Assembly (NCBI GenBank): GCA_026419785.1
Contig: JAODTK010004521.1
Span: 426,001-490,000 of the forward strand
Length of the DNA: 64,000 nt
Reading direction: 5' to 3'
Origin: Sclerodactyla briareus
Lineage: Eukaryota > Echinodermata > Holothuroidea > Dendrochirotida > Sclerodactylidae
In this document: in pieces, positions 14,690 through 62,565 of the stretch
Position numbering within the stretch: the first letter of the stretch is position 1
How the letters are laid out: each line of letters starts with the position of its first letter
The notes under the pieces: generated by a model
What the model saw: only the letters and a program-made list of their open reading frames with translations
What the model was told of the DNA's origin: nothing
Database searches by the model: none
Translations under genes and position numbers: made by a program

Positions 14690-16810
14690 AATTTGCCTCA
14701 TTTCTCGATATTTTTTCACGGTCCATGAAGGAATTGTTGCTGGCGATTTTAACATCCACGTGATGACTCCTAAAACTGTGACGGGGTTCGTGTTTGTGAC
14801 CTCTTTGCCTCATTGACCCTGAAACAACAGGTTAATGAAAGCACTCACCGTCACGGTCCACTCTTGATTCCCTAATCTCTCGCAAAACTTCTTTTGTTAT
14901 AATCTATGTTCATCAAAATTTTGGTCTACTTTCTGATCATAACGCCATTCTTTGTTCACTTGACACAACCACGCAAGGAAGTTTGCTATGGCAAACCGGA
15001 GACATGATACCGAAGGTCCTTTAGTGACAACGCTATACGGTTGCGCACTCTATACAACATGGCTTCTAACTTACCGCGCTCGTTGATCAGTGAAATTACT
15101 GTCTTCGTGAGCTCTAGACCTACCATGCTCCGGAATTGAAGCTGAAGGTCACTTTGCGTCCCAACGCTCCATGGTACGATGATAGTATCGAACATTTTTT
15201 GGACAAAAAGGAGTACCAAGCGCCAGTTTGAGCGTAGGTGGCTTAAATCAAACTTGGATATTGATGAGGATGCCTTTCTAGATTACTGTTAGTTATATAT
15301 TCAAGAGCTTGAATCTACAAGGTGTGGTTACTTTCCTTCACAGCTTGGAGATTGTGATGATTACAGTTTCTTCAGTGCTGTAACACTAAATCTGAAAGGA
15401 GTTTGCCTGATAATACTTGTTCTAGGGTCCTTGATAACCAATTTGCGGAATTCTTCTCTGAGAAGCTCGACAAAATTTGTCAGGATCTAGACAAAACACA
15501 GGTGGTAATCAGCCTATAGAAGTTTAATTGGCTCTATGCCATTCGCAGAGTTCCGAGAAATTTCTCTGGCGATGCTAATCAGTTGTGTCATGAAATCTCC
15601 AAAGGAAACTTGCTCCTGGACCCATATTGACATATATGGTATCTACTTGCATGACGCTACTGCTGTGGTTACTGCATTTAATATGTCACTTGCTTCAGGG
15701 TAAATGTCCGTCAAGTTGAAAAATGCTACACGTTGTGCCCATCCTGAAGAAGTGTAATTTGAAGCATGACATCTTAAAAAATATCGACCAGTCAGTCTTC
15801 TGTCTTTCTCTCCAAGGTCATTGATCAAATACAAACCTTATTTTATCATTGCATTAACTCACCATTGAATTCCCTCAGTGCCTGGTTCGGGTGTCCATCA
15901 AGGATCGATTCTCGGTCCTCTCCTGTACACTTTCTACACCGGCCCAGGGTGACATATTCCGTTCACACCATGTGGACCACATGATCTATGCTAATGATAC
16001 GCAGTTGTACCCTTCCTTTCATCTTCTGCTCGCTCACTGCTATCAGTAAGACTGGTATCAGCTGCCATGCATTGGGCTGCCTGTAAATAAGCGTGAAATA
16101 AAGAACTCCCCCAGACCCAATCATTCTATCACCCAGACACCGTGGCACCAGCAACGTTACGGGTCCACCAAAAGTACAGTGATCAGTAATTACAGTTGCA
16201 TCGCACATCCGCAACATGTTCAATCGGCTGGTATGCGTATCACAAAATTGGACAGATGCGGAAATATCTTGTCGACTCAGGATTCGAGGATTCGCTCATG
16301 CTTTTGTATCATCTCTTTTAGACTTAGCAAATAGCTTACTCACTTGGTCTCCTCTGTCTGAACTTCAGCATATCCAGAATGTAGCAGCCAGAATTGCCAC
16401 TTGTACCAGCCCATGCAGCATATCACTCCAGTCCTGCAAAATCTTCAATTGGCTTCCAGTTTGGCTGCTCCGAATTTCTTCAATGTTCGGCTTGTCATAT
16501 GGTAGATTGTAAGATGTAAGGTGATTCGACAGCTTATCTACAAAATCTTGAAATCTATGTTCCTGTACGCAATCTTCGTTCTCCACGCAGACCCTTTCTC
16601 ACAACCCAGAATTCGAACTAAAACCTACGGTGAACATGCTTTCTCCTGGTTGGGGGCTTCTCTCTGGAATGCCCTTCCAGAGGATATTCGCACTCCCCAG
16701 ATCAGCTCCTTCAAGAAAGAGCTGAAAACTCATCTGTTCATGCTTCACTCCTGATTTTCTTCTCTCCTTCGTTGTGAAGCGCTCGGATATTGCATTAAAG
16801 CGCTAATAAG
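14690..16810 (+). mobile_element. LINE of L2/CR1 type, 5'-truncated and decayed
   Basis: A non-LTR retrotransposon remnant with domains in the correct order. Endonuclease: GDFNIHV at 14742, a block like STHRHGPLLDS near 14840, and LSDHNA near 14927. Reverse transcriptase: a piece like KNYRPVSLLS near 15775, GVHQGSILGPLLYT near 15890-15930, and the catalytic box read as YANDTQL at 15987, where the family has YADD, so a catalytic aspartate is lost. C-terminal region: LQHIQNVAARIAT near 16365, then RTKTYGEHAFSWLGASLWN near 16615-16670 and SFKKELKTHLF. The reading frame changes repeatedly. The 3' end runs into an AT microsatellite. Its last ~160 bases are repeated at 21800-22020 because the tandem-duplication breakpoint falls inside it. 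Confidence 0.8.
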
Positions 16811-16929
16811 CACCGCTTATATATCGGATATATATATATTTCACTATATAATTATATATTATGTTATACATTTCATGTATTATAATTATAATTATGTGGA
16901 GACATACTTTGACCTACAATTGACCATTT

Positions 16930-17350
16930 GATCTCATAGGGCTCGAGACATGTGTGGGCAATTCTTGTGGCGACCAGAATCGTCTTCTGAGCAGGCAAAC
17001 CAAAGTCAGTTACAATGATACTAAAAACACTGATAGTACACGCTATCTCCAGTTATGTCCTCTGTAAAAGGGGTAAAACAGCCTTTCAAATCGTCTATTT
17101 TTTCCCCGACGAAACATTTAAGTGGGTTGGCGTAATGGTAAATTTTTTCTCGTCTTGTTCATGCACATTTGGTGCCCTACTTTGACTCTTTTGCCTTTGA
17201 CTTATTTGTCCTAATGAGTCTTGTGACTTTCTGGTCATTCTTCGACGACCAGACTCGTCCTTGTTGCAACAACAAATAGTCGATTGCACTGACATACTAG
17301 ACACTTCTATCACACTCTAATCCACAGTTTGTCCATGCAAAAGGGTGAAA
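16930..17350 (-). repeat. Dispersed subrepeat family, minus-strand copy
   Basis: The reverse complement contains two units opening with a phrase like 'ctgttttacccctttt'. They continue through the 'gt-tgacagaag' region and an AGGTCA-rich stretch containing 'gacgagtctggtcg'. Both units align with those at 45491 and 45780. Unit spacing is about 270 bases. No protein is encoded. Confidence 0.6.
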
Positions 17351-18339
17351 GCTGATGAATTTCATGTTCGACATCGAGTTCTCGTGCACTGGAACATTTT
17401 GGAGAACTGGCGTAGAGGAAGTTCTGTTCTTCTGTATGGCTACCACTAGAACCCACGAACCTGAGCTGACACCTTTCAAATTGCGACGTGACTGCCGTCA
17501 GTATTTTATTCATAGCCAAAGTGAGGCATCAAGATTGAAATTAACAGGAAAAATAAAAAAAAATTTATTTTTTTTTTTTTCCATGCATAACATATAGACC
17601 AATTAAAATCTAATATTCAGCGGGAGAACAGCAGGTCCCGAGGTATGAAATGATAGTTGAAAAACGTTTGGTTTAACAGCGTTCTATTCAGTTCTTAGCC
17701 AAATCTTGGGGGCCTCGATTTGTTGTAGTCGTAAACGGTATACGACACTGTCAACTACTTCATTAAGGGACACGAAAAAGCGCGATCATCATATCTGTAA
17801 ATGTTCCAAAATCGTTAACTATTATTGTGAGAAAACAAATACACCAGCGCGTGAATATGTTTTTCTGATGAAACAAGTATTAAATTGATACCTAGCAAAT
17901 AATTACAAAAACGGAAACTATACTGCTTTTCTAGTGCATTATACTTTCCTATTGAAGTTACATCCACCAGACAAAATGATAATGTCCGGTTTTCCCTCAG
18001 TTCCTCAAGCACAGGCGTTTTTCCAACAAAGCCCTCATCCTACTTGAACAAAAAAAGGCACCTCATCTGAATTTTAATTCCGATATCAATGTACAATCAA
18101 CTATCACAGAATTTTCTCGATTGAGTGCCAACTGAATCTTTTCTTAAGTTTATTGTACATGGCTATTTCAACTTCAACTGCACAGACTACACAAGATCTG
18201 AGACCGACCCTAATGCACGCGCTTTCAGCGCTCCGCAAAAACTGTGCTTCAGGATTCATTGTACGAAGTCAAAGTACAGTTCTCGAACGGTGTCATATGA
18301 GGTTGTGTTGGTCTGTCCCAATATGCAACGCGCGAAGGT

Positions 18340-18740
18340 TTTGTTTGTTTACGCGTAAACGTTTCCGTTACGCGGAACCTTTTACCTTACGCCTGAACGT
18401 TTTCGATACCCGTTAAGAACTTCATTTTCAACCGAAAACCAACCGTCTCCAAAATCATAGGTTCCATGTATTTCTCGTAAGGAACATATAACCATCAATC
18501 GTATCCTTCAACGCGTGACAGTGACGTTCAAGCGAACGGAACCTTATATACCCGTAACTAAACTTTCACGCACAACTGAAAAACCTTAACGCGAATGCAT
18601 ATTATGGCAGAGAACCACTCTCTGAATAGAACACCGTTCGAGAACTGCGCGTTGACATTGTTGCAGTTGATCATCAAAGCAAACTCTGTCAATTTAACGT
18701 ATATTTCTCTAGCTTATGGGAAAGTGTCCGCGTAACGGGT
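18340..18740. repeat. TTACGCG-motif cluster (copy 1)
   Basis: At least eight ACGCG or CGTAACG motifs lie within 400 bases of otherwise CpG-poor DNA. The first few fall on a rough 20-26 base rhythm (TTACGCGGAACCTTTTAC, then TTACGCCTGAACGTTTTC). The cluster is kept in the second copy at 23660-24040. It could be a degenerate minisatellite or a promoter-like CpG patch; no gene is seen next to it. Confidence 0.5.
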
Positions 18741-20224
18741 CGAAATATTAAGAATATGTCCGTTTGACAACCATCCCAGTTCGAGCTCAGCATTAATTAA
18801 TTAGCTCTCGTGTTGTTGATATTTCACGTCCAGAATGGTGTTTCTGCCAGACGTAATCGAACTGTATTCGTTAATTAATTATGTGTTGTTTTTGTGCTCC
18901 GTAATGAATCGGCCGCCTTTTCGAGTTTTATTATCAGCGTATTCTGAAACAGATGTTCCAGAATATTGCACTATGGCATACTAACTCATTTGAAACAAAA
19001 AATTTAGACGGCGGGGCTTATGTAGAATAATTCCCAGAAAAAGAGTAAACAAAATCCATGTGTCACGAGTTACAACATAAAGCGCCTCCTCACTTGGTGT
19101 TTTGTGGTCTCTGAGAGGAAATTGAACAGGGCACACAATACTTGGTCTGATGTCCTCCCAGTTAAGATAATAGCTCATGTTGCTCGGATCCATACGGCCA
19201 ACCAAACGCGATTCACGAATCACACGCTGCATGTGCTTGCGCAGTCGATGAAACGCTGATTTATATGCTAACTACCTATCGGAATATTATTTGAGAAATT
19301 AAATGAAATTCACACACCTGTATGATCCATCTGTCACAGCGAGAGCCAGCCATATATGACACTAATGTGGTCGCCTAATTGAGATAGCAATTCTGTTTCG
19401 AGATAAATCGCTAAAATCGCCAAAGCAAATAAGTAGCAAGCGGATTATATACTCAATTCAATATGTGAAATGATAATTGGAAAATTATTCATCTATATGA
19501 TTTTGCTTATGGTGCGTCGATCTTGAAACCAGGGCAGTATATCCACCCCTGCCACATGAATTTGGGTTTTACATTTGTAGAGAGTATTCATCAAGGTGTT
19601 AGTATGAATGTTGGAAAATCAATCCTACCCCCCTATTCATTCTTCCGTTATCCATCGAAGTGAACCTCTAGACCTGAGGATAGGTGATGAATAGCTTGTA
19701 GAGTAGGTTCGTTACAACAGCACAAAACCCCTAGAAATGTTTGATTTAGTTTCTCTTGAATGATTTGAGACAATGAGTAACTGCCGCAGCACTTCTGTCT
19801 TAGTTTTTCGTCGTTTCAATTCAAATTCAATTTTCTTCACTTGCACTATGTCAAAGATCACACCATGCCGTGTATATATTACCGCCATGTTGTACAATGT
19901 GATTGACTATCAGCAGGAAAAGCACGTACTCAGAGCCCAAACTGTCAATAGCCGTGAAACAGTGAACGGAAGAATGAATCTCATATGGAAGCGAAGCGAT
20001 CAATTACTTCCGAAAAACGAAGGCGAGTTATATAGATTATGATTTAAGAAGGGGGTGGTGGTGTTCGATTGTCAAAGTGTGACAACCTATATTTCGAAGT
20101 GGGAAACAACCCGTTAGTTCTAGAAGTCACATTATGTTCATGTCGTTTGCCATGCGGAACCAGGCTGAGACTTCAAACTCTGAACAATATATAATGCAGT
20201 GGGAGATGGGAATGTCAATAAACT

Positions 20225-20890
20225 GACGGTAAAAGATCTTTTCAGTTGAAAACAGGTTTGCGCTGATCATGAGAAGACTAAGTTGATCTACTTCTCGTCA
20301 CACTTAGTAACTCTCCTTGGAATCCCCCCAGCAAAGTCGCAAATTGAAAGTCTGTGTTGAAACCGGTATCATAAAGCTCGCAATTTAGGAATGATTATGG
20401 ACTTTCTTAGAAGGTAGTCTGACAAAACCAATTGAAAACATCCCTGCATGCCAATGTAGAATATAGGGAAACATTAGCCAGTACCTCGATCAAAAGAACA
20501 CCACATGCTGATCACTGCTGTTGTTACCTACCTGAGGTGATGATGGTAATTCCTCGTTATTTGGTCTAACTGGACTATCTTATTAACAAGATTCAGTGAG
20601 TGCAAAACATTGCTGCTCGTTTTATTCCCTGTGTTCATTCGTCATGAACTATCACTCATGCTTCAAGCTCCAAGTGAGGCAGAGAAGCTTTTAAGATCCT
20701 TCTACTCATGTATAAAGCCAATCAACTCTGGCTCCTAGTTTTCATCTCAGAGCTGTTCAGCTGCATTTTCCTTCCAGATCCCGAAGGTCCTCTTCCAAAC
20801 GACAGCTTGAAGTCACGTTCGCCCATCCACCAAGTTTCACGGTTATGGCCAGCCGTGCTGGACATTCCCCCATATTTGTCTGTATGATTG
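20225..20890 (+). mobile_element. LINE 3' fragment (RT end and C-terminus)
   Basis: The fragment reads TKLIYFSSH just after where the YADD box should be. It continues with a piece like RNLGMIMD, then VQNIAARFI near 20610 and ILLLMYKANQ near 20700. It ends with a C-terminal block like SRLWPAVLDIPP. These match the L2/CR1 LINE C-terminal half in order. Frame breaks and the missing 5' part make it a dead fragment. The second copy is at 25625-26250. Confidence 0.65.
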
Positions 20891-20894
20891 GTTA

Positions 20895-21275
20895 TGTGAT
20901 ACGTGGATATATTCGATATATACGTGGATATATTCGATTTTCATCCGTGCATATATTCCGCTGCTGTGATTAATTGGATTAATACTGTATATATTCGAAT
21001 ATAAGTGCATATATTCGATTTCAATACGTGGATATATCGACTATACAGTGGCATATATTCGAATATATACGTGGATATAGTCGACATATATAACGGGATA
21101 TTTCGAATATATCGGGGATATATGCGATATATAGGTGCATATATTCGCCTATATACGCGGATATGTTCCGAATATATTTATGTGTATATATTCCTGATCG
21201 CTGATTGGTTTGTGATTTAATCGTGCATATAATCGAATATATAGGTTGCTATTTCGAATATATACGTGAATAAAT
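20895..21275. repeat. Palindromic minisatellite, ~22-24 bp unit (copy 1)
   Basis: Units follow GTGGATATATTCGAATATA with GTGCATATATTCGAATATA variants. Each contains the self-complementary core TATATTCGAATATA, so single strands could fold at almost every unit. The array is about 380 bases here and about 235 in copy 2, so it has changed length since duplication. Confidence 0.8.
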
Positions 21276-21279
21276 ATGC

Positions 21280-21790
21280 TCGGGCATGTCCTCACGCTTT
21301 CAATACGGTGACCGTTCTTCTCGCGCCTCGCTGCGCTTCCTTGTGGATACCCTACCTGACTCGAATCCAAACCCGTGAACACCATGCCAACACCGACGGC
21401 ATCCCCTGGCGAGAGGCTGTCCATGCTCCCCCCCAACTGCGAGTGAGTGTTTGCTGACAGAGCCTCGTCAATAGAGGAGACGAGTGAGGCAGAGGGGCTG
21501 AGGAGCAGGAACACGTAGGTGGGGTCCGTCTGGCTATGACTCTAACTCACTTCAAGTATCGTATTACCGTAAAACGTTTTCTTTCACTCAGCACTTTCTG
21601 TCTGACTGATTCTCCTGTTATTTTTATTGTTTGGTTTTGTTCACTGTTTTTTTTTTTTGTCCTCTGGTTATTCTCTTCTTTTTTTATGCTATAGTTGTCG
21701 TTTTGCTCTGTAAGGTATAGAGGCTTTTTGCCTAGCGCGCTCTATCGTTCCTTCATAATTTTTTAATTTCGAGGGAGGGCCGGAACAGTT
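21280..21790 (+). mobile_element. LINE 3'-tail sequence (copy 1)
   Basis: A C-terminal piece corresponding to FKFRLKTFLF in the second copy is followed by a 3' UTR ('agaggcttt', 'gcgctcta') ending in a T-rich stretch. The layout resembles L2/CR1 3' ends. The minus-strand frames of 121 and 163 codons over this segment and its copy are antisense to it and are not taken as genes. Confidence 0.45.
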
Positions 21791-21799
21791 CAAATGTCG

Positions 21800-22022
21800 C
21801 TGGGTGGGGGTTTGGGGCTTTTCTCTCTGGAATGCCCTTCCAGAGAATATTCGCACTGCGAAGTACACTCCTGTCAAGAAATAGCTGAAAACCATGCTGT
21901 TATCTGCGTCATAATTTTCCTGATTTGCCCTCTCTCCTTCGGTTGTGAAGGCGCGATTCGAGATATTGCATTATTAAGCCGCTATATAAGCAAACCGCTT
22001 ATATATATATATATATATATTT
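21800..22022 (+). mobile_element. Duplicated LINE 3' end with (AT)n
   Basis: Matches 16650-16850: 'ctctggaatgcccttccag', then 'gatattgcatta' and 'aagccgctatataagc', ending in a (TA)n run near 21998-22020. It is not an independent insertion but the left edge of duplication copy 2. Confidence 0.8.
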
Positions 22023-22079
22023 TCATATAATATATATTATAATATATGTTTTCATTCATGTATTATAATATTATTATTG

Positions 22080-22580
22080 TGGGACCTCTTTGCCTCATTT
22101 TTGCACCATTTGATCCATATGGCTCGAGACATTGGGGTCATTTCTTGTGGCGACCAGACTCGTCTTCTTGCAAACCAATAAGTCAATTAAACTGACGCAC
22201 TAAAACACTGCTCGACATTACCCGCTATCTCCCAGGTTATTCCCTCTGTAAAATGGTGAAACAGCCTTGCAAATCTTCATATTGTTTTCCCCTACGAAAC
22301 ATTTAAGTTGGTTGGCGTAATGGGGCCATTTTTGTTCGATCTGTGCATGCTACATATTTGTGACCTACTCTTTGACTTCTTTTGAACCTTTTGACCTGAG
22401 TTGGTCCCTATTACCCTTGACCTTCGGTCATTCTTCGGGCGACCAGATGCGTCTTGTTGAGTACAAACAAATAAGTCGATGCAACTGACATACTCAGACG
22501 CGCGAACCTTCTATCATCACACGCATCCACATTAATGTCCAACGCAAAAGGTTGAAAAAAGCGAGGGGGGGGGGTTTGAA
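22080..22580 (-). repeat. Dispersed subrepeat family, minus-strand (duplicated)
   Basis: Copy-2 equivalent of 16930-17350. The reverse complement carries the unit openings near 22262 and 22555, and the 'gacgagtctggtcg'-like stretch between AGGTCA-rich spacers. A G-run interrupts the second unit near 22565. Confidence 0.55.
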
Positions 22581-23659
22581 AGGCTGATGACTTTCAGTGT
22601 TCGCCAATCGAGTTCTCGGCACCTGGAAACTTATTGGAAACTAGCGTAGAGGGAATTCGTTCTTCTGTATGGCTAGCCCCCACTATACCCAACAACGACT
22701 GCCAACTTTTTCAACTGGCGACGTGACTGCCTGTCAAGGTTTCTATTCATAGACAAATTGAGGCATCAAGATTGCATAGAGATATATTTCCTGAAATACC
22801 TTAGAACCATTAAAATCTTAATCTTCTAGGAAGAGAACAGTCCACGAGGGTATGTAAAGAATTTTGAAAAACGTTGTTATAACAGCGTTCTATGCAGTTC
22901 TTAGCCAAATATGGCCTCGATTTGTTGGAGTCGTAAACGTATAGCGTCACTTTCAAACTCCTTAATGGACCGAAAAAGCGGCGATCAGCATATCGTGTCA
23001 ATTTCCAAAATATTACCTCTTATGCTAGAAGAACAAATACACTATCTAGTGAATATTTTTTTTCTGAGACCCAAAGTATTAAATCGAACCTAAAACCGCT
23101 GAAACTATCCTGTCGTTTTTTCTGTGGCAATTAATTCATATTGAGTTTAAAATCCCCCAGGACAAGGAACAGCTACCAGGCGAAAAAGGAAGGGAGGGGG
23201 GGGCGGGGGGGGTAAAAAAGGAAGGGGGGAAAGGCAAAAACAAAACCAAACAAAAAAAAAACAAAACAAAAATATGATAATGTCCCCGGTTTTCCCAGTT
23301 CCTCAGCACAGGCGTTTCTTCTAACAAATCTCTCCTAATTTTGAACAAAAAACACCATAATATTTTTTTCCGATACAATGTACAATCAACTAATCCACAG
23401 ATTTTCTCTATTGAGTGCCAACTGAATCTTTTTCTTAAGTTGATTGTAACATGGCTAATTGCAAACTTCATCTAGACTGCACAGACTACACAAGATGCTG
23501 AGACCGAACCCCTATGCAAGCGATTTTCATCGCTCGCAAAACTGTGCTTCATGGAGTTCATTTACGAACGGTGCAAGATTGAGCAGTTTAGCGAACGGTG
23601 TCATTGAGGTGTGTTCTGATCTGCCAGAGGGTATGCAAGACGCGCGAAGGTTGTTTGGG

Positions 23660-24040
23660 GGTTGTTACGCTATAAACTTCGTTTACGCGGAACTTTTACC
23701 CTACGCCTGAACGTTGGTAGATACCCGTTTAAGAAATTCATTTTCACCGAAAACCAACCGTCTCCAAAATCAATAGAGTTCCATGGAATTCTCGGTAAGG
23801 ACAACACCATCAATCGATTCCTTTACGCGGACAGTGACGTTTCACGCGTAACTGAAACCGATATACTCGTAACGAACTTTCAACGCACAACTGAAAACCT
23901 GAACGCGAATGCTATTATTGCAGAGACACTCGAATGCAACACCGTTCGAGAACTGCGCGTTGACAGGTGCATCGAGCACAAAGCAAACTATGTCTAATTG
24001 GAACGTATATTCCTCTATCTTATGGGAAAGTGTACGCGTA
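23660..24040. repeat. TTACGCG-motif cluster (copy 2)
   Basis: Same motif series as at 18340-18740: TTTACGCGGAAC, CTACGCCTGAACG, TTTACGCGGACAG, CACGCGTAACTG, AACGCGAATG, CTGCGCGTTGAC and GTACGCGTAACG, in the same order. The CpG-bearing motifs survive well although the surrounding bases contain many indels. Confidence 0.5.
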
Positions 24041-25624
24041 ACGAAGTCGAATATTAGAATATTTCCGTTTTTGACAACGCTCCGTCCAGTTTCGCGCTCA
24101 CATTAATTTCGCTCCGTGTTGTTATCATTTCAACGCCAAGATGGTGTTCTGCAGACGATAATCGATTGTATTCGTTAGTTAATTATGTTGTTTTTGTGGC
24201 CTCCGTCTAATCGGGTCGGGCGGGGCCGACTTCCGATTTTTATTCAGCGTATTCTGAAACCAGGGATGTTCCAGAATATTGCACTATGGCCTACTACCAT
24301 CATTTTGAAACAAAAAATTTAGAGGCGCCGGGGCATATGGGAGAGAAATTCCAGAATCAGAGTAAACAAAATCCAAGTGTTCAACGATGTTACACACATC
24401 AAGCGCCTCCTCCTCACTTGGTGTTTGTGGTCTCTGAGAGGATATTGAACATGCCCACAATAAAGCGGGTCTGATGTCCTCTCCCGTTAATATAATAGCT
24501 TCCTGGTTTCGATCCATACTGGCCAACCAAAACCGATGCATAGCAAACGCGTGCATGATGCGCTTGCGCATCGATGAAACGCTGATTCTATCGTGCTATA
24601 GCTACGCGATGCTGATATTAGTTGAGAACATAAATGAAGAAATCACACGCCTTAGTGATCTCTGTCCAGCGAGATCCAGCCGATATGAACAATGTGTCGC
24701 CTAGTTGAGATATCAATTCTTTGTTTCGAGATAAATCGCTCATGAGAAGCGGGAAGCAACCATAGGAAAAAATGCAAGAGCGTGGATATATACATTCATA
24801 TGGTGAAAAGGGGGATAATTGAAAATTATTTTTTTGAATGTTTCATTCTAATAGATAATTTGCTCATGGTGCGGCTCGATCTTGAAACCAGGTGCGAGGG
24901 TACGTCCAGGCGCGCGATTCAACATGAAGTTTTTGTAAATTGTGGTAGTAGAGTAGTTCAGACAAGGTGTTAGATTTTGGCAAATCAAATCCTCCACCCC
25001 AGGTAGGTGTCAGGTTCTGTCCGTTTATCAGGGAAGTGAACCGTCTAGGACTTAGTATAGGTGAGAATATCTTGGAAGTATGTGTGCGTTTTACGAGACC
25101 CCGAGCTAGAAATTCTGGTGGTTGAGTTTAGTGGTGCTCTTGAATGATGGTTGAGACATGAGTAACTGCCTAAAGACTCGTCGTTAGTTTTCGTTTCATT
25201 CCAATTCAATTTCTATCACTTTCACTTACTGCCCAAGAATCACCAATCCCGTGTATATTATACCAGCCATGTTGGTATCCATGTGATTGACTATCAGCAA
25301 GAAAATAACAGTACTCAGCCAAACTTTCAATAGCCGTGAACATTGGAAACGAGAATGAATCTCCTAATGGAGATCGCGCGATCCATTTTCTTCTCTTTTC
25401 TATTCCGAAAACGAAGGCGATTTATATATGATTATGATTTAAGAAGGGGGTGGTGGTGTTCGATGATCAAAGTTGACAACCTATATTTCGACGTGTGAAA
25501 CAACCAGTTAGTTCTAGAATCACATTGCTGTTTCCTATGTGGCATAGTTAACGCATGAAACTGTTCATGTCGTTGCCAGGTAACCATGTTGATGAAACTT
25601 CAAACTCTGGAACAACTCTATAAA

Positions 25625-26250
25625 ATGCAAGTTTTGGAGATAGTAATTCAATAAACGGAGGTCAAGAATCTTTGTCAGTTAAATAACACGGCTTTTGTCG
25701 CTGAATGATGATAAACTAATTTGACTACTTCTCGTCAGCACTCTAGTAACTCTCCTTGGATCCGTACCATCAAAGTCGTCAATTGAAAGTCTGTTTTTGA
25801 ACCTGTAACTCAAGCTCGCATTTAGGAATTATTATGGACTCTTCCTAATGGCTATCAGTTCCAAACCATTGAAACACTCCCTGCATGCATAGAATGATAG
25901 GGAACATTGGCCAGTACCACAATCAGAAGACCACCACCATGCTTATCCATGCTTTTTACATCCCTGCATGCTGGATATTGTAATCCTTGTTATGTGTCTC
26001 CTGACTATCTATTACAAGCTTCATCAGCGAGGGCAAAACATTGCTGCTCGGCTTATTCCCGTGTTGGTTGCCTTCGTCAGGACTTATCACTCCACGCTTC
26101 AAGCTCCACGTAAGGCAGAGAAATTGGCTTGTTAAGATCTTCCTACTCATGTATAAAGCATCAATTGCATTGCTCCTAGTTTCATCTCAAGAGCTTGTTC
26201 AGCTGCCTGTTCCCTAATGTCCTTCAGATCCAGATGCCCTGCTTGCTTAA
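25625..26250 (+). mobile_element. LINE 3' fragment (copy 2)
   Basis: Duplicate of 20225-20890, with the same order of pieces. The 'aaacattgctgctcg' segment encodes the VQNIAAR block near 26035, and 'cctactcatgtataaagc' the LLMYKA block near 26142. It is more broken than copy 1 and shorter at its 3' end, where the minisatellite begins. Confidence 0.6.
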
Positions 26251-26254
26251 TTGT

Positions 26255-26485
26255 ATTTAATACGTGGTACTATATTCCGAATATTATCATTATTCGTTTA
26301 ATACGTAGATATACGCATATCGTCTATAATCGACTAATAGGTGCATATTTCGAATCTATTACGTGAATATATTCTAATATATACGGGATATATTCGAATA
26401 TTAGGTGCATATATTCGAATATATACCGGATATTCGAATATATAGGTTGCATATATTCCTAATATCTACGTTGATAAAATATGGG
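26255..26485. repeat. Palindromic minisatellite (copy 2)
   Basis: Same TATTCGAATA-centred units as at 20895-21275. There are fewer units, with more variants. Confidence 0.75.
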
Positions 26486-26489
26486 GAAG

Positions 26490-26985
26490 GTCCAGCACGG
26501 CTTTTCCATACACGGTCCGTTCTTTCGCCTCTGCTCGCTTCCTTGTGAATCCCCGCACCTGACTCGAGCCAACCCCGCGAACCCATGCAACCACCGACGC
26601 ATCCCTGGACGAGGCTGTCCTTCTCCCCCCAACTGCGAGTGAGTGTTTGCTGACAGATGCCCTGTCAATCGAGCGACGAGTGAGGCAGAGGGGCGAAGCA
26701 GGATCCACGATAGTGGGTCGTCGTTGGCTCTTACTCTAACACTTTCAAGTTCCGTCTTAAAACGTTTCTCTTCCCGCGCACGTTTCGTCTGACGATTCCC
26801 CCTTCTATGGTCTTTGTTTTGTTTTTCTTTCCTGGTTTTTGTTTTGGTCCTCTGTTTCTCTCCTTTTTTCTCTGCCTCGCATGTTTCTTTTTGCTCTGTA
26901 AAGCCGTCTAGAGGCTTTTGTGCATTAAGCGCTCTAATCAAGTCCTCCATACTTTTTTATTTCGAGGGAGTCCCGCATTCAATGT
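26490..26985 (+). mobile_element. LINE 3'-tail sequence (copy 2)
   Basis: Duplicate of 21280-21790. FKFRLKTFLF is followed by a T-rich 3' UTR containing 'tttgctctgtaaag' and 'gcgctcta'. It ends at the right edge of duplication copy 2. Confidence 0.45.
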
Positions 26986-27558
26986 CCTATTTCGGGCTAT
27001 TGAAGTATTAAATGGGATCGAAATTTACAATAGGCTTATCATGGTAGATCATTTGACGTAATTTAGACACATCAAATGCATAATATTAGATATCAAAAAT
27101 GTTTTTAATTGACTGCTCACAGTTTACCCCCAAAATAAAACCGCTTTTTTCGTTTCACTCTGCTGGTGTCCGAAAGATCTCCATCACTATATTTTTTCAA
27201 TAATAGGTTAAAGTGCCATATCATTTTAAAGAATAACGCTTGTGGCTCCTCACTCAATTCGTTTATTTGATCCTATTCCCACATTGAACCTTTAACTTTC
27301 AACCAATGCGGGCGCTACTGGGAAAGGTGGATTGATCAGTTGGATTTTTCACGCTTGGATTCAATTCAACCTACATATCAGGTCTCTTGACAAACATTGT
27401 TTTGTCATCTTCGTCCTTGAGCTAATTGTGAGTTAAGGCTCCCGAGGCAACGGCCTGTCTATAGGTGTACAATTTTTAAAATCAAAGTCCATACCACCGG
27501 AATCGACAGAAAATTAACTAGTTTGACTGGTCACATGATGTACAGATGGAGTTTTTAT

Positions 27559-32402: not shown

Positions 32403-32434
<32 letters not shown>

Positions 32435-33565
32435 TCCCATAGCATGTTGGACTTTTTTGCCGATTTTATTGGTAAGTGCCCAAATAATCCAAATTTTACA
32501 AGTTTCCACTTTTTGCCCAATTGACCCTCTACCCATCAACAATCAAATAGCGTTCATGTACTCATCATGAAGAAGCCCACCCACCAAGTTTAAACTTTAT
32601 CCCACTAGGTATGTTTGGCCTTAGCCTGATTACAAGGTAGGCGTTACATATACCATACACACGGACCCACTCGTGACTGCCATGATTCCCTTAGGACTCC
32701 CGTCTAGGATAAAAAATTGCTAATTTTTGCATTTAACTGCAAAATAGGCAACATTTTTTTGAGATTTGAAATTTGAGCTTTTGATCTCATCATCGATGTA
32801 TTTGACCCCGCTGCATCTAAAAAACGCCATGACAAATCCTATGAACCTCTTAACTGTAAGCTAACTGCACCAATTTTGAATACAACACTTTGTCCTCTGA
32901 TATCTTCGCACACAAGGTCATATGGGGTCAATTTATTAACCATTTCGATCAGAAGTTACCTTTGTGATCCTAAAATGGCAACGAAAATTCAATTCGGCCA
33001 AACCTAGCAAGGTCAATTGAGGTCACAGGTCAACACAGATTGGGGGTCAACGGGCGAATCACATTGGCGCACCTCCCCGCCTCGCAACATTCGGTTTCCC
33101 TGTTATGGCCAAAAATTGGTTTTTTTATATCCCTCTAATTGGACCTCTAAGTGATCTAAATGTCCTGTAGATGTGAACTTAGGTTCAATATGATCCCTCA
33201 CATTGAATCGCACCTATTCCCCAAAAGGTCAGCGAAGTAGGACCTTGCTAATTGGAGTTATTGCCCTTTTAAAATTTTCAGATTTTGGCCTCTCCCATTT
33301 GGCCTTTGGTGACCTTGACAAGCACTGAAAATAGGGATCACTCTCAACACACATGACGAAACTACAGGGCTGAATAGAACTTGCGTTTGTTTAGATCTTG
33401 ACCTCTGGTGACCTCAGACGTTCTCTGACCTGACCCCAAGCAATAGGGTTCATGTACTCATATCATGAACACGATACAATCCAGTGCGGAGTCGAGTTTA
33501 TCGTGTTACAGCCCGGGTTATACACGCACCCAACATACACACACACATGTCACAACTGCATATAT
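31880..33565 (+). repeat. Dispersed subrepeat family with a ~165-bp array
   Basis: Four copies of a ~165-base unit run from about 31945 to 32650. Each carries 'cca-caagtttgaacttaatcc' (near 32020, 32181, 32355 and 32578), then 'ttggactttgcctga' and 'ccagaatttt-acaagtttccac'. The third unit is interrupted by a ~50-base T-rich run at 32390-32437. Downstream, TGACCT-rich sequence leads into the phrase 'gacctcagacgttctctgac' (33412), which is also present at 12975, and into a partial tail near 33540. Nothing here is coding; the lysine- and phenylalanine-rich frames come from the T-run. Confidence 0.65.
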
Positions 33566-38134: not shown

Positions 38135-38885
38135 GGACAAATCATGAGTTGGTTTGGGGCTAGGTTTGATGAGGTAATTTGGTAAGATTCGGAAATTGCT
38201 GGACTGGTTAGAGGGAACTGCCAGTGATATCAGCATTTATCACCGGCCAGGATCCTTATGATGGCACTTGCTTGTCGTGATGCCTATTATCAGTGATATG
38301 CTGGATGGTTCAGGCTCCTTTACTCTTGTGGCAGGCGATCTATGTAGTATGACTGATAGAGATGCTTAAAGAATGATTCAAAATGCACTGGCGTGCGGGC
38401 GGGGGTGGTCTTCAGATTTGGCCCAGGAGATAAAACAAACGAGCACGACCAACTAATTACAGTCTCCACACCAGATATGCAGCCTCATTCCAACCCCATA
38501 CACCATAATATTTTGGCTCTCCTCACTCCTAGGTCGGTCGCCCCCCTTCAAATAGTATGTTTGGATTAGGTGTATGTGTGTGTGAAGGGGGGCTTACTTC
38601 AGAAAATGGATAGGCTCTCTTGAGATAGGGGTGAACATCTGCATTTACAGCGCTGCTTATTATTGGCGGGTACAATCTGCTCGATTATCATTCAAAGTTT
38701 GTTGCCAACGGATTTTTCCAGTGTACAATTTTGTTGTCTTTATTGCTGGGACCGCCCCCGCCTCTCTGCTTTTTTCATCTGGCAGATACTGTGATGTGGC
38801 TCAATCACGAGAAGGCCTACTATCAGAGTCATTAGACAAGTCCCAGGTATGAATATCTCTTCTACATAGTCAGGAATATCAGCCG
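38135..38885. other. No gene recognised
   Basis: Probably includes eroded LINE 3' sequence at its left end. The rest shows no motif. Confidence 0.45.
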
Positions 38886-38889
38886 AAAT

Positions 38890-40260
38890 TTAGCTAATAT
38901 GGTAAGAATTCCTACCCAAATATTGTTGTCTCCTCCAATGCGCCCCATGCCGCGCGGGTCGCAGGGTTCTCTTCTCGGGCGACACGGTTTAGTTGATAAA
39001 CACGAGAAGTCCTCGCCTCATCAGACCCTCTCAGCCAATACCAGTATCTCAACATCCTCCTCGATGTTGCGGCAGGTTGCGCCTTCCCCACTGGGGCACG
39101 TGCCAACCGACGTCCGGCGGCTGCGACGTCCGATGCGAGTCCTTGTGGTTCCTGGTCCTGGTGGACAGAGCCACACCGGTTCCGAGACGGTCAACAATGT
39201 GCGGCTTACCACCTTATGCCCGCCAAGTGCTTTCACCCGGCGGCCTGGAAGGGCGATGTCCTCTCCCCTCGTAGGGACGGTCCCTACGTGTGAGCGTTCC
39301 CTACCCAGGGTAATTGCCCCGTTGGCTCACTCATCGTGGTCCGGACCCTCGATCCGCAGATCGACCTCCTGATTCGGCCCACGATCCCTCGCATCTTGTA
39401 AGAGGCGGCTAAGCTTCGGTGGTCCACGGCCACGCGCGCCCCTGCGTCTCTTGCGCGACAGTGCTATCCACAGCGCTCCGAGCCAACGCAAGGGCATGAT
39501 TGCAGATGTTTCAAACATCTCCCGCAGGCAGTCCACGCTGATTACGTGCGATTCCCGCCGTGGTGGGCCGCTGATCACGGCTGTAATCCCATGGATGCCT
39601 CGGTAGGTAAATGCATGACCCCTCTCTATGAGGGGAAGAAGGTGTGGATCTGAATCACCGCTTCGCCATGGTGACGGCACATTAGCGGTTTCCCGGATGA
39701 GTCGTCCTTGGTGACAATGACACCATACGACAGCTCTTGCGGGGGATGTTCAACAGCGTCCCACGTGCTTCGTTGGTAGCAGACGAGGCCTCTCACTGAC
39801 GGGCTCGCCACACCACGGTCCCGTACAACCAGGCATAGGGCAAAACCCTTGGAGCTCCTTTCCCATTAAAACCTCCCCTCTGCTCGCGGTCCTCCGGGCT
39901 GCTTAAGTGGGTTATAAGCTGACAGTCCAGACGTGATCCACTTCTACCAGATCTGTCATTCTTAGCGAAGAACTAGTCGATTGCGTTCACACCGCAGGAG
40001 ATTAATCTCGCTCCCTAATACACACGAAGACAAAGCGCTGGTCCCCTTCGGCTTGCGCTGGTACATCGAGTGGACACGTTCGATCCGACATCATGATCAG
40101 CTTTCCTCCTGCTCGGCAAGCCGCATTACACCGGCTCCTAAAAATTCCATTACGCGCTGGATAAGGTGACTCGATCCAAAGATGACACGTTTTCTCCAAC
40201 GAGTCGGGGCCTCCACAGCTTCTTAAAAGCATGCATCCACATGCAAGAACTCACGAAGGA
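38890..40260. other. GC-rich island with overlapping frames, nature uncertain
   Basis: Base composition is clearly richer in G and C than on either side. Open frames of 157 codons (plus, 38899-39372) and 117 codons (minus, 39327-39680) overlap other frames, so neither strand is clearly coding. On the plus strand the right third (about 40020-40260) has a faint resemblance to the end of a DIRS-type reverse transcriptase, with a block like KSALVPSA before a long variable stretch. I treat that only as a hint. If it is a retroelement, it is an old broken one. No rRNA or tRNA sequence was recognised. Confidence 0.3.
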
Positions 40261-52624: not shown

Positions 52625-55010
52625 AGTAGTGAACTTGCCCTTTTGGCCAGGTGCGGGAGCTAGGCCAGAAGGGTGAAAGCCGTTTCCCCCGACGTAGGGA
52701 CTAATTATTATTCATGAGGTCGCCACTCATTCGTCGAACAAGAGGAGGAACATTGCAACATTGATTGGGAAATCGTCCAGGAATTCTACACAGGCCTGCT
52801 GCCCAAACCCCAAGAAACGAATTATTGATTAAGACAAAAGTTTGCCCAATTTATTTTAACATTATTGTCGGCGCTTTTTAAACAGTTCACGGATTAGTTG
52901 ACGGAGATTTTTGGAAATTGCCAATGGTTCCCGAACGAACAGATCCCGGCCCAGTCGTTTTATTGTCACTCAATCATACCCTGCCACATGGACTCGCGCA
53001 CACATACAGCGTTGTGACCATGTAGCCTTCACCTGCTGCCAGCGGTTTGCCGCGGTTAATTTGATGCTCACTGTAGACTGTGTGCAATCACGTGTAGTAA
53101 ACACTGCAGGGTCTTGTGTGCATGCCTATTGAGTGCTTAGTTTCAGTCCGGTTGAGCCCCGTTGTTGAGTGGTTTCACACTCCGTGGAATTGGTAGCCAG
53201 GCGATAGTACGCGGAAGTCTCGCAGGCCTAAGTAGCTTATTGTCTTTTCGCGACTTATTCGGGTATTTATTCTGAACTGTAGCATATAAGTTATTCTGAG
53301 GGGTTAGCCTAATACTCGAAACTCTAAGGAGGTAACGCTGTTTTTGTAGGGAAATCCAAGGTTGGTGAAACGACTGTACTGCAGTTATTCGCCCAATGAC
53401 GTAGCAACGTAGCGACCATTACCGTAGGTTTTCGCTCCTTCGGGTGAATTCCCACTTTCACCCGGTTGGCTAGCTCCGGCACTGTTGGTGCATAAAATAA
53501 ACAGGAGCAACGATGTGCATTCCTCATGAGCATGTTATTGAAAGTTTTCTGAGTCGGACATATATAATATTCATATATAATTATATATAATTATAGAGAT
53601 TATATCGTAATATTCCTATTTTTTGTTGGTGCTTTTATTTTTTTTTTTTTTTTTATTTTTTTTTTGGTTTACTTTTTATTTTCTTTTTTTTTTTTTGTGT
53701 GTATTTTGTTTCAGCATAATAACGAAGAAAGAGGACATACCCCCTTACAAACTGAACACAAGAACGGGGTTTTTTCAGCAAGACTGCCTCGAAAAGTTAT
53801 TTTCCGATTGGAATAGTTGATATTGATGAACTATCATATTGTTGGAGTTGGGGATTGGAATCAGGGTTTTAGAGGGTTAGTGAAGTTCAACACAGATTAT
53901 TTCCCCAGACAGTGTGCGGTTTTTACAGAAGGTTTTAATTAAATTACAAACAGGTACTGTTCGTGGATCAGGAGAAATTTGCTATATTATCCAGTCAGGG
54001 TTGTTTAGTTGTTGTAGTTGTTTGCTATGACTATTTTATTATATCCCCTACAAACACACAGTTTGCATTCCTTTAATTTAGGGGTTTGTGGAAAGTCTGT
54101 CTCCCAATTTTGTTCAAACACGCGGCAACATAAAATAGTACCTTTTCACGCTCCGTAGTCCAAATCCATCACAAATACAAAGTATGGATGCCTCGTAATA
54201 AACTCGTTTAGCACATATGGAACGATGCAAGTTATTCGGATACGGGCGTTCGGATTTCATCATGAAATATCAGAATATGATCCCGTCACCGATCAATTTC
54301 CGGAGATTGTGTGAGGTTTGTTTCGATTGTATGGACGCACATTAATCCACTTAAGTACGACACTTCGAATCGCCTTATCTCTATTTGTTCAAATCGACAC
54401 TTCGAGGAAAAAAAAAAAAAAAACACTTCCCAATCGAGACAGTCAAAGGGAGTAAACAGGGAGGTAATCTAGATGTTATCACCTTGATGCAAGATCCATT
54501 GTAGATATATGAACATTCGGGGGACAAACATTTAAAAGCTGCTATCAAACAGTCGCTTATTTCCAGTCTGAAACACATCTTAGACGGCATGTGTTTTTTC
54601 AGAGGAGTCGAGTGAGTCGAGCCGAAATTCGTTCTTTAGGAGTAGACATTTCTCTTCAGCTCTGATTTTTTTTAAGGGCTAAATGCATGCGATGAGTTAT
54701 ATAAAATTCGGTGGATAAGGCGACCTCAATCCTGGAAGAATGAATCACCAGGCAAGTCAATTACTGCCTGTCCAGTCATCCTTCGTCATGTTCAGTACAA
54801 ATGATTATCGATCTCGACTACATACGGTAACGAGCGGAAACTTAAGAGTCAGACTAAAAAATATTCGATCCCCCTCAGGGGTCGATATCAGCACGAAAAA
54901 GCGCTGGTTCTTGATATATTTATTCAGACCGGAAAAAAAATGATTCCAGATGAATACATTCATGATAAGCTCAGTTCTTGCCCGAGAAAGATACCCATCT
55001 GCGGAAGTAC
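52625..55010. other. No gene recognised; T-rich tract
   Basis: Contains an AT-palindromic stretch near 53560-53605 and a T-rich tract at about 53636-53697. The part nearest the receptor (54600-55010) would be its 3' flank. No clear poly(A) signal was picked out. Confidence 0.45.
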
Positions 55011-55017
55011 TGTCAAC

Positions 55018-56120
55018 TTAAAGACAATCTCCCGGAGAGTTACGTCGTTTTGCAGAAACAACACGCATAGTCGGAAGCACCTTCCGAAAGTTCAAACTGA
55101 GAAGGGTGTAAGGAATGGATTAAGGACAGCTGTTAGTACGACAAACAACCACAGTAGACCCCAGATCGGTAGCTTTATGACCAGTTCCTTTACGGGTGTA
55201 GATAAACATATGCAGGCCCAGAACGGTAGATAAACAACCAATAAATTATCACATGAGGAATATGATTTTAGCGACTCGCCTCTTGGATCGTCTCCCTTCG
55301 GCCACCCCCGTTTTGCGGACAGGGGTGACCGACCTGAGGACATGATTAGCAACAGGGACTATAGACTAGAAACACCACTATCGAGGGCCGCAGGAAAGCC
55401 GTTGAAGAACATATTGGACATGTAGGACGGCATGCCAAGTTCACCTCCGAGGGTCCACCGACAGGAGAGCTGGATCGGCCATAGGCAGTTCGCTTCCTGG
55501 TCGACCTTCTTCATCCCGATGAGCAGGGTACGACGAGACCCATCGACGAAACACACTGCCAGGATCAGCCTACGGGCGCACACGGGACCCCTCTGGTAGA
55601 GGACTGCATCGGCATGGACCACTGCGACGTATCGCCGACGCTCATCACGCCCAGGATGTAGGCACTCACGTGCATGGTGAGGAAGTCCATCGTCAGGATC
55701 AGCCGGCAACCAAATAGCGCCGGAAAATCCATCCCTTCGTGTTGTAGTTAGTAATCGTGTAGAATACCGACCCCGTGATATAGAGGAGGTCCGTGATACT
55801 GAGGTAATGATGTATTTATTCAGCGTGTTCACAGTGGGGCTTCGGCTGGGTCGGAGGGAGAGAAGCAACCATAAGTTGGCAGTCAACCCGACGATTATAA
55901 TCAGGATGAACCCGGCGATGAGCAAAGCTCGAAAAGATAAAGGAGAATCCGTACTTGCCGCATCTTCGGAACACCTCGATTCGACAGTTTCATTCAGGAG
56001 ATGAGTATCGGGCGACATAGCCAAACTTTGACTTCCGAACGAAACGTTTGACTCTTCTGAGAACAGAATGGAGCAGCTGTTTCCCTGAAAAGCTAATTCG
56101 ATCGTCGATGAAACGTCCAT
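55018..56120 (-). CDS. Urotensin II / somatostatin receptor-like GPCR, intronless
   Basis: A class A peptide-type G-protein-coupled receptor acting at the plasma membrane. The start is the ATG at 56120, with an in-frame stop just upstream. The N-terminus (~62 residues) has N-glycosylation sites at N25 (NVS) and N43 (NET). TM1 is about residues 64-89 (FILIIIVGLTANLWLLL). TM2 reads YLSITDLLYITGSVFYT, keeping the helix-2 aspartate; TM3 reads GCRLILTMDFLTMH, then VMSV and RYVAVVHA. Loop 2 has NCLWP with the disulfide cysteine. TM5 and TM6 (VVYLPFWACICL) follow, then TM7 (LLWLFVVLTAVLNPFLTPF), with NPFLT in place of NPxxY. The basic tail ends at the TAA at 55018-55020, giving about 368 codons, close to human UTS2R in size. 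TM3 and the following loop closely match UTS2R as I recall it. About seven frame changes interrupt it (after TM1, before and after TM3, in TM4, in TM5, before TM6, after TM7). The acidic residue before RY falls on one and cannot be read. Sequencing indels seem likelier than decay because motifs are intact; a young pseudogene is possible. Confidence 0.8.
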
Positions 56121-59163: not shown

Positions 59164-59592
59164 TTACAGTCGGCCTAACAATCTACTGCTTTGGGCATCG
59201 TAGCCTGGGTAGGTCTGAAATCCAGCAGATAAGCTAAGTGCATGCCATCCTAGCGCTGAGCTAATGGTGGATGAGGTACGTCCGAATGTCGCTATTCCAT
59301 CGGATATGAGAGTAAAGGTACCATTGCCACAGAGACGCACAGGCACTGAATACCATGCATACGGATGCGAGTAATCGAGTGGTTCCCTGTGCTCTTTACG
59401 TCCGAGAGAACTCGCTAACAGGACAGTTCCGTTTAAAACACAATTAAAGCCACTCAACGCTGTCTCACTAGCTATTTCTGAATCGGCCCGAAATATTGCC
59501 GACTTCCTTGGCAGAGACCGCGGACCTAAAATTAGGGTTAGAGCCCTCCGAATTAGTCTTTGTTGGTGCTTGTCGTGGCGTAGGGTTTCCAC
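59164..59592 (-). CDS. Unrecognised 142-codon open frame
   Basis: Not recognised. The frame stays open over 429 bases on the minus strand. Its middle looks protein-like (NCVLNGTVLLASSL, then HPYAWYSVPVRLCGNGTFTL) with two N-glycosylation sequons and two cysteines, so an extracellular exon is conceivable. Its first part overlaps, antisense, the start of the plus-strand LINE at 59560. There is no hydrophobic signal at its start and no clear splice acceptor. Chance, an antisense LINE frame or a host exon all remain possible. Confidence 0.2.
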   Translation of the reverse strand: METLRHDKHQQRLIRRALTLILGPRSLPRKSAIFRADSEIASETALSGFNCVLNGTVLLASSLGRKEHREPLDYSHPYAWYSVPVRLCGNGTFTLISDGIATFGRTSSTISSALGWHALSLSAGFQTYPGYDAQSSRLLGRL

Positions 59593-62565
59593 TTGCCCCT
59601 ACCTTGTCCTCACCGTCTTACTACCCTTATCATGTTTATTCAGTTTTCTCAACACACCTACTGCAGCCCCTCACGTGACATCTGTTCCTGTTTTTCTTTC
59701 TGTGCGCGAATATACGGTCTCCCGCAATCTCACCATGTCCAACCACTCCTTATGGCTCAGCATCCTCATCTACTTTTTAACTAAACACAGATTATAACCT
59801 CTTGATTCATCACATCTCCAGTGTCCCAACTATATTCTTCATGATTGTGTCATTTGAAGGCTGGAGTGTTGCTTTGTCCACCCAGCCCCTGCAGCCGCAC
59901 TTTCGGAGGGGATCTCTGTTGTGAGACTTTCCTTCTCTGGCTCAAAGTCCTCTTCCTCGCTTAACTCGTGTTCGGTTTATGTTTACGTTCGCCCAATTGG
60001 TAAGATCACGAGGCTCTAGTCTCGCACTCACACTCTGTTTTGAATCACTAATGCAACGATACAACGACTGTGGAATTGCTATACTGGGGGATTTCAATGT
60101 GAATAATGCAAGAATGGCTCGACACTCTACAGCTCTGAATAGAGCTGGTGTCGAAGCTGATTCTTTTGCTATTACCAATGGTCTCACCCAGCTCATAAAT
60201 TCTCCCACCCGTATCCCAGAGCGGGCCTCGGACTCCTGCTACTTTTTGGATTCTTTTCCCTCACTACTCAGGCCCTTATTTACAGTCCATCAACTGTCTC
60301 TGCCCCTATTGGCTCCTCTGACAATTGCCTCATTACCCTCTCTCATCCATCTAACTCCTTAATGCAAGCTCCCACCACAGGCAAAACTCTGGAACTACGC
60401 CAAAGCTGACTGTTTTGGTCTTCGGGATTTTTTTTCCAGTCGTTCCCTTGGGATGAAACTCCCTTCTCATGCCCTCCTACCTCTGCTTCTGTCTAGTTTC
60501 GGAAATCTATTCTTTTAGGGATGAACACTTTTATTCCCGACACTTTAAGATCAGGCTCCTCTTCATGACCTTCATGGTCAACCATCATGTCTACCTTTCC
60601 GTCCAGAGAAAGAACCGACTTTCATCGAGCTTGTCTATCTTCTCCTTCACCTTATTCCCGTCAAGCCTATGTTACTGATCGTAATGTGTGCCTTCGACAT
60701 CGATGAGGCAAACATTCTTTCATTTCAACGTATGGCTAATAACTTTCATCCGCCCTCTGTAGTCGTTCATTTTGGGCGCCTGCCTAATCTGTGTCCGCAT
60801 AACTTCTGTACTTCCAAATTCCCTCCGCTGGTCACACCGGATGCTCTTGGCTAGTGATGCCACCTCGATCTAATACTTTTGCCGATCTATTCTCTCCTAC
60901 ATTCATCACTAGAACACAGATCTCATTACCTCCCCTCCATCGTTTGCCACTTTAAATGAAACGATCTTGGAGGTGGTTTTCACCTCGCATGGTCCCCAAA
61001 CCTCAATAGTTTATACATTATAAGCTCTGTTCTGATGCATCCTCCTATAGTCCTCCTGAAGTGTGCCCCCAACTTGCGCCTACCTAGCAGCTTTACCGCC
61101 TTGTTATTCTATGGGATGCTAAACCTTCTGTGTGGAACATGCCTCATGTCTGCCCCGTCCCTGAAAAGGGGGACAATCACCCCTCCAATTACAGACCCGG
61201 ATTGCCATCCCCTCGGTCCTCTCCAAAGTTATGAACTAGAATAACAAGCATGTTTTGACTTTCTTGTTTCACTCTCTCATCAGACCACCATATGGTTTCC
61301 GCATGGCCGATCTACTGGGGACTATCTTTTGTCACCAAACAGTGGGCCCAAGCCATTAGTTTTTCGGTTAAATTAGGGCATTGCCCTTTGCTATCTCTAA
61401 GAGGAGGGCTTTGACCGTGTTGGCACCCGGCCATCCTTCCAAATTAACTTCATTTGGTTTCAGCCCCCTTCTAACCTTTGTGACTGCCCGTTTTCTTTTT
61501 TCCGGTCGCTCTATCTGGTTAGGTTTGATGGTGCGCTCCGTCAGAGAACCTTCCTATCAAAATGCTGGGTTCCTCAAGGTTGGTTTTTTCCCTCTCCTAC
61601 ACTCTTTTCCTCATTTTTATCAATGATCTTCTTAGCTCTCCCTCCTATAGTATTCACGTCATTTGCTGATGATTCTACCTTCACCACTCTCTGTGCTTTT
61701 CCCTCGACCCCCGGAAGCGGAACGATTTTGTCTACAACCGTTCCTATTGCCAATCAGCTGAACAATGACTCATCTATTTTGAACTGGGGCAACTGCTAAT
61801 CTGGTTCCTTCAACCAATCTAAACTCAGAACTGCTATTTCTGGTCCGGCGTGTTTCTGATGCACCACTATTTCCTGCTGACTCAGATTCTCCCTCATTCT
61901 ACTTCTCTTATATCCTGGTATGGAAATCAGCAAACCGTCCTGGAACTCTCATTCCAGTCATCGCGACTATGCTTCTAGATCAAGTTTGGGCTTCTTATTT
62001 CGCACAAGAATACTCCTTCCCCCACAACAGCTACTTCGCGTTAGCAAGCCCAAATTCGCTTCCCTAATGAATTAGGTTGCCATATTGGGGTTGGGCTTCG
62101 CCCTCCTCTCTCAGTGTCCTTAATCGTATCCAGAGAAAGCTTCGTCTCAACAACGATGATCATCTTCCTCCTCACTCAACCTCTATCCCCTCGCAGATCT
62201 GTATCATCTTTCTGCCTCCTTTACCGTTATTGTTAGGTACAATGTTCGTCTGACTTGGGGATGCTGTTCCTCTTTACTCGAGGTTACTCGCAATACTCAC
62301 TCTTCTTCTTCCAGGCACCCGTTTCGGTCACATCTTCCACGTCATCGCACCGGAAAACCTATCTCGCTCCTTTTTTGACTCGCACTTCGCGTGCCTGAAT
62401 AGGCTTCCTCGGGAGTATTTCTCCTGATTTTGACCTCCGCGGTTCAAGAGTAGAATCAACAAGCTGGATCTCTCCTTTTCTTTTAGGTTCTTGTGCTTGG
62501 GGGTTGCTTGTTGTTTAGCAATTATGGGTTCGCCTTCCTCAGGCACTTTGTTTTAAAGAAAAAAA
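59560..62565 (+). mobile_element. Long LINE copy (Jockey/CR1-superfamily type), decayed
   Basis: Domains run in order on the plus strand. Endonuclease: weak N-terminal blocks from about 59690, then IAILGDFNVNNARM at about 60078 and AITNGLTQLINSPTRIPERA near 60170-60230. Linker: VQRKNRLSS near 60600. Reverse transcriptase: EKGDNHPSNYRPGLP near 61155-61200, then WHPAILPN and LTSFGFSPLL near 61420-61470, CWVPQG near 61562, and the catalytic box SFADDSTFTTL, with both aspartates intact, at 61658-61690. C-terminal: LNRLPREYFS near 62395. It ends in an A-rich 3' end ('gttttaaagaaaaaaaaagc', about 62550). Frame changes and stops are frequent, so it cannot be active as read. The exact 5' end is unclear. 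Confidence 0.75.

Follow-up and report, generated by a model that had tools for sequence, protein, structure and literature searches.

The window, that is, the whole stretch of 64,000 nucleotides of Sclerodactyla briareus DNA analysed here, carries on its minus strand a class A peptide GPCR that can be read from an ATG to a stop codon when the three frames of that strand are combined (Table 1). The coding region is a single exon with no intron-sized gap, the alignment with UTS2R running from 55955 to 55084. By their class A residue numbers, N1.50, D2.50, C3.25, D3.32, the RY of E/DRY and the cysteine of the second extracellular loop are readable in sequence order, followed in the second half by P5.50, Y5.58, P6.50, N7.49-P7.50 and Y7.53. 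From N1.50 to Y7.53, only W4.50 of the class A set cannot be read, at a point where the frames change. The original prediction, which gave no strand, had described an intronless receptor with its landmarks in order, starting at an ATG with an upstream in-frame stop, ending in a basic tail and showing no more than about a third of itself in any one frame. All of these landmarks were recovered on the minus strand, the single exon agrees with the description, and the estimate of a third is a fair one, the longest coherent single-frame piece covering by eye some 300 of the 1103 bases.

Table 1. Features of the receptor locus and of the tandem duplication, in positions of the window.
Feature	Coordinates	Strand	Remarks
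Coding region, class A peptide GPCR, single exon	55018..56120	-	three minus-strand frames
Start codon	56118..56120	-	in-frame stop 56129-56127, two codons upstream
N-terminal tail, frame 1	55986..56048	-	N-glycosylation sequons NVS (56048-56040) and NET (55994-55986)
TM1, frame 1	55854..55934	-	N1.50 within TANLW
TM2 and extracellular loop 1, frame 3	55723..55803	-	LSITDLLY...GWIF, D2.50
TM3, frame 2	55637..55711	-	C3.25, D3.32-FLTMH
RYVAVVH, frame 1	55614..55634	-	acidic residue of E/DRY falls at frame change
TM4 and ECL2, frames 1 and 2	55476..55580	-	conserved Cys in ANCLWP; W4.50 unreadable
TM5, frame 2	55361..55396	-	FLRPSIVVFLVY, P5.50, Y5.58
ICL3 and TM6, frames 3, 2, 1	55182..55320	-	basic SKRRVAK, then YLPFW (P6.50)
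TM7 and basic tail	55018..55152	-	TNSC (frame 3), LNPFL (frame 1), YTLLSLNFRKVL...AKRR and stop (frame 3)
Stop codon	55020-55018	-	end of basic tail, frame 3
AATAAA, possible poly(A) signal	54919..54924	-	downstream of stop
Tandem duplication, outside the gene	16648..26986 (16648-21798 and 21809-26986)		sequence-error yardstick

One landmark had been described as unusual, namely an NPFLT in TM7 instead of the NPxxY motif. NPxxY is present, divided between two frames: frame 1 reads LNPFL at 55124-55110, whereas the frame 3 stretch YTLLSLNFRKVL starts at 55110, with TNSC just upstream in that same frame, so that NPFL continues directly as YTLL. NPFLT was consequently rejected as a real TM7 variant; it is a frame artefact that arose because frame 1 had been read one codon too far.

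Homology was assessed with our own local aligner, which sets DNA against protein and penalises frame changes instead of forbidding them, using the solved chain 9jfk_R as the UTS2R reference. In this frameshift-tolerant alignment the locus scored 210 against UTS2R, in comparison with a mean of 35.7 (sd 4.8) and a maximum of 55 for the same protein on both strands of 172 other 1400-base segments (180 were cut and the 8 overlapping the locus excluded). Additional UTS2R controls gave at most 48 in 40 dinucleotide shuffles, 52 with the reversed protein and 38 on the opposite strand, and with five receptors at 40 shuffles apiece, 200 in all, the highest score was 57. Moreover, the read-through obtained along the UTS2R path matched the Pfam family PF00001 (7tm_1) at 2.9e-28 and 99.5 bits, above the curated cut-off of 30.5. 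The same family went unmatched in the three raw frames and in a first read-through made by eye, and four single-frame pieces of the locus yielded only weak Pfam matches to zf-C3HC4_5 and DUF5848, below their cut-offs. With homology so far above the null, the locus is a class A (rhodopsin-type) peptide receptor.

For the subfamily, seven receptor types were compared, the path through the frames being chosen separately for each, and all of them were represented by vertebrate references. At a frameshift penalty of 10, UTS2R scored 210, KOR 187, GALR2 185, SSTR2 184, GALR1 142, MCHR1 139 and KISS1R 123. UTS2R was also at the top with penalties of 6, 8, 10 and 14 (283, 241, 210 and 170, respectively), with KOR as the runner-up (265, 218, 187 and 148). 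In this line, eight profile-guided read-throughs, one built with all seven references and seven leaving one of them out, all had UTS2R as their best match. Even the read-through whose profile lacked UTS2R scored 285 with this receptor versus 266 with GALR2 and 264 with SSTR2, and the narrowest margin, found when GALR1 was omitted, was 281 for UTS2R to 280 for SSTR2. In searches against the PDB, the by-eye read-through, whose path had been chosen with UTS2R in mind, found UTS2R at E = 1e-19 and SSTR2 second at 5e-14. When the path was that of SSTR2, however, SSTR2 came first with 100 bits versus 74 for UTS2R, which indicates that the choice of path biases the family call. Among the raw frames, frame 2 alone gave a single match up to E = 10, a weak one to UTS2R over TM3 (E = 0.13), and frames 1 and 3 gave no receptor match in the PDB. 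Residue by residue, the locus shares 11 of the 96 residues private to UTS2R, 10 of 75 for SSTR2 and 11 of 101 for MCHR1, proportions that do not discriminate. Asp3.32, read in frame 2 of TM3, is likewise common to SSTR2, KOR and MCHR1 and not specific to UTS2R, but NPFLYTLL and D3.32-FLTMH occur jointly only in UTS2R among the seven.

A phylogenetic view of the same question also places the locus beside UTS2R. In the tree with the read-through free of UTS2R, both grouped at 93/90 (unstarred), and in the one with all seven references in the profile at 96/94 (starred). With the UTS2R-free read-through, AU tests rejected the pairing of the locus with GALR2 (0.0078), SSTR2 (0.0005), KOR (0.0015) and MCHR1 (0.0006), and the tree, which holds vertebrate references only, did not pair it with SSTR2 or KOR, as a somatostatin/allatostatin-C placement would have it. 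Both the locus and UTS2R sit on long branches. When UTS2R was omitted, the locus grouped with the galanin and kisspeptin receptors, as UTS2R itself does in the absence of the locus, and a clade of the locus with galanin and kisspeptin receptors was not rejected (p 0.0625).

Of the urotensin/somatostatin-type receptor announced in the original prediction, the wider assemblage of urotensin, somatostatin and galanin receptors is supported, and the finer call is partly so, UTS2R being the nearest of seven references that are only vertebrate. The search and the tree suggested at that time put UTS2R first of the seven and next to the locus at 93/90, but they are qualified by the read-through on the SSTR2 path. 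Membership in the UTS2R subfamily is probable judging from the alignments and the trees, and we would give the UTS2R-type call about two chances in three. There is a smaller yet real chance that the same intact gene, broken by read errors, belongs to a different subfamily of this assemblage as one of its divergent invertebrate members, be it allatostatin-C/somatostatin, galanin/allatostatin-A, MCH or opioid-like, and that UTS2R appears nearest only through the vertebrate-only references. The close scores of KOR, GALR2 and SSTR2, the margin of a single point in one leave-one-out profile, the preference of the SSTR2 path for its own receptor, the indifferent private residues and the long branches all speak for such a placement. 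On the other hand, the first place of UTS2R in every profile read-through, the four pairings rejected by the AU tests and the combination of TM3 and TM7 motifs found only in UTS2R speak against it. Returning to the UTS2R-type reading, such a receptor would be expected to bind a cyclic cationic peptide, with Asp3.32 contributing, and to signal through a G protein, as UTS2R does.

The surroundings of the gene offered little that could be recognised. CpG dinucleotides occur at 0.88 of expectation. An Rfam search at gathering scores and a tRNA scan found nothing, and none of the nine pattern matches of a viral contig scan was confirmed as a relative. A GC-rich island at 39001-40000 (0.56-0.63) overlaps the last part of an open frame of 178 codons (38836-39372), a tandem array with a 168-base unit at 32003-32655 adjoins a 42-base T-rich run, and the plus strand is pyrimidine-rich at 59501-62500, with a GC skew of about -0.22 to -0.29 and an AT skew of about -0.17 to -0.29. 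Pfam searches gave nothing convincing in six raw frames each of 38.0-41.0 kb and 57.8-62.7 kb, where neither the island nor the skewed stretch had a match, in one frame per strand of 1-15 kb and 40.5-55.4 kb, or in two plus frames of 15.0-26.9 kb, one weak match to OFeT_1 (E = 0.01) on raw translations outside the locus falling below the cut-off. Since no second broken gene was found in this way, a tandem duplication some 30 kb from the receptor served as the control for the quality of the sequence. Its two copies share a stretch at 16658-16738 and 21821-21901, translated in copy 1 as FSLWNALPEDIRTPQISSFKKELKTHLF, which we take to resemble the tail of non-LTR retrotransposon proteins, and in both there is a minisatellite, of about 21-43 bases, with ATATATTCGAATATATACGTG as its building block (20899-21193 and 26325-26471).

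The two copies, about 5.2 kb each and ten bases apart, gave a global alignment with 4175 matches, 422 mismatches and as many as 515 gap openings, 356 of them single-base and 15 of 12 bases or longer, spread along the alignment so that every full bin of 300 columns holds 21-36 openings. Substitutions are also peculiar, with 105 transitions and 317 transversions, a number of transitions below random expectation (p = 0.0002). Under two gap settings the ratio of gaps to mismatches was 1.08 and 0.71, compared with 0.12-0.23 for simulated natural divergence and 0.00-0.04 for substitution alone under those settings; among these simulations, run five times per setting, the copies resemble those in which each copy received 6-8% indels and 3-4% substitutions. 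As for the receptor, its alignment holds 12 called frame changes, and a comparison with UTS2R-like genes simulated at identities of about 36-42% (24 runs per setting) sets its score and frame changes nearest to the means obtained with indels at about 3-7% per base, a loose estimate, as single simulated genes at 1.5-2% also fall to 210. Both estimates of the indel rate are of the same order. Because the tandem copies carry the same indel-heavy noise outside known genes, we infer that the gene is intact and that its frame changes are read errors. Sequencing indels, as first proposed, are therefore the most likely cause of the broken frames, and the window has the look of long-read sequence with little or no error correction. 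The data point to no particular platform, given that long homopolymer runs are in no shortage and that in 148 of the 356 single-base gaps the base is the same as an adjacent one. Since its differences look largely technical, the pair may have arisen by very recent duplication, or else be an artefact of the assembler. Real mutation may account for part of them, considering the 15 gaps of at least 12 bases and the 11 other repeat pairs of the window, shorter and mostly dispersed, in which the ratio of gap openings to mismatches ranges from 0.25 to 1.06.

That the frame changes exist in the DNA of the animal, and the locus is thus a true pseudogene, is unlikely, and we grant it only a slight probability. 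Its many frame changes, the unread W4.50 and the match to just 17 of the 26 columns in which all seven references agree would fit a decay of the gene, but an indel-heavy, transition-poor pattern like that of the tandem copies is not produced by simulated natural divergence. Moreover, over about 870 bases the closest simulations to the locus contain some 25-60 indels. Natural indels and substitutions occur at a ratio of about 1:8, and at that ratio the substitutions accompanying so many indels would leave the motifs little chance of persisting. A genuinely frameshifting organism was also considered and rejected, as the noise extends to the tandem copies as well, a stretch without any recognised gene. 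Finally, a chance alignment of noise, conceivable insofar as the frame path was picked to fit, is rejected as having a negligible probability, since equal freedom of path reached at most 55 in the 172 segments with UTS2R and 57 in the 200 shuffles, against 210 at the locus. Altogether, an ordinary gene in poor-quality sequence is the most likely explanation, and we consider it probable, by roughly two to one, that this is a single-exon class A peptide receptor nearest to UTS2R, intact as a gene, with its frames broken by uncorrected long-read errors.

In methodological terms, the locus illustrates how noise in an assembly can hide a complete gene from annotation, and how an internal tandem duplication can gauge sequence error without any reads. 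Its biological significance is modest, another peptide receptor of a known assemblage, which would be useful for tracing UII receptors outside vertebrates. Earlier reports describe UII-like peptides in Aplysia (PMC3493602) and in the oyster (PMC8398477), and another presents UII-type receptors as a clade beside the SS/ASTC/opioid and MCH receptors (PMC7536072). With both the peptides and this receptor clade already known, the locus adds one more receptor at most. In our searches of the literature outside subscription papers, no title reporting a protostome UII receptor was found. We tentatively propose, as a possibility somewhat short of an even chance, an invertebrate urotensin II receptor that might pair with UII-like peptides such as those of molluscs, with a Tyr replacing the usual Trp at the 6.48 toggle.

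Among known systems, UTS2R (9jfk_R) is the closest, having the top score of the seven, 96 identical residues of 269 aligned, the D3.32-FLTMH of TM3, an [F/Y]LPFW without Trp at 6.48 and the NPFL/YTLL of TM7. It differs in that the locus, at ~36% identity, has broken frames and a putative ligand. Such an identity is low for a vertebrate orthologue and, taken with the CpG ratio of 0.88, makes an invertebrate source likely. SSTR2, the only representative here of the somatostatin receptor 2/allatostatin-C receptor group, shares with the locus D3.32, the NSC ahead of the TM7 NP motif and the LSxNF(R/K)K that follows TM7, but it has Trp at 6.48 and NPILYAF, its score is 184 and the AU test rejects the pairing. 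GALR2, in turn, has the same FLTMH in TM3, but Ile instead of Asp at 3.32, WMPHH, NPIVYAL and a score of 185.
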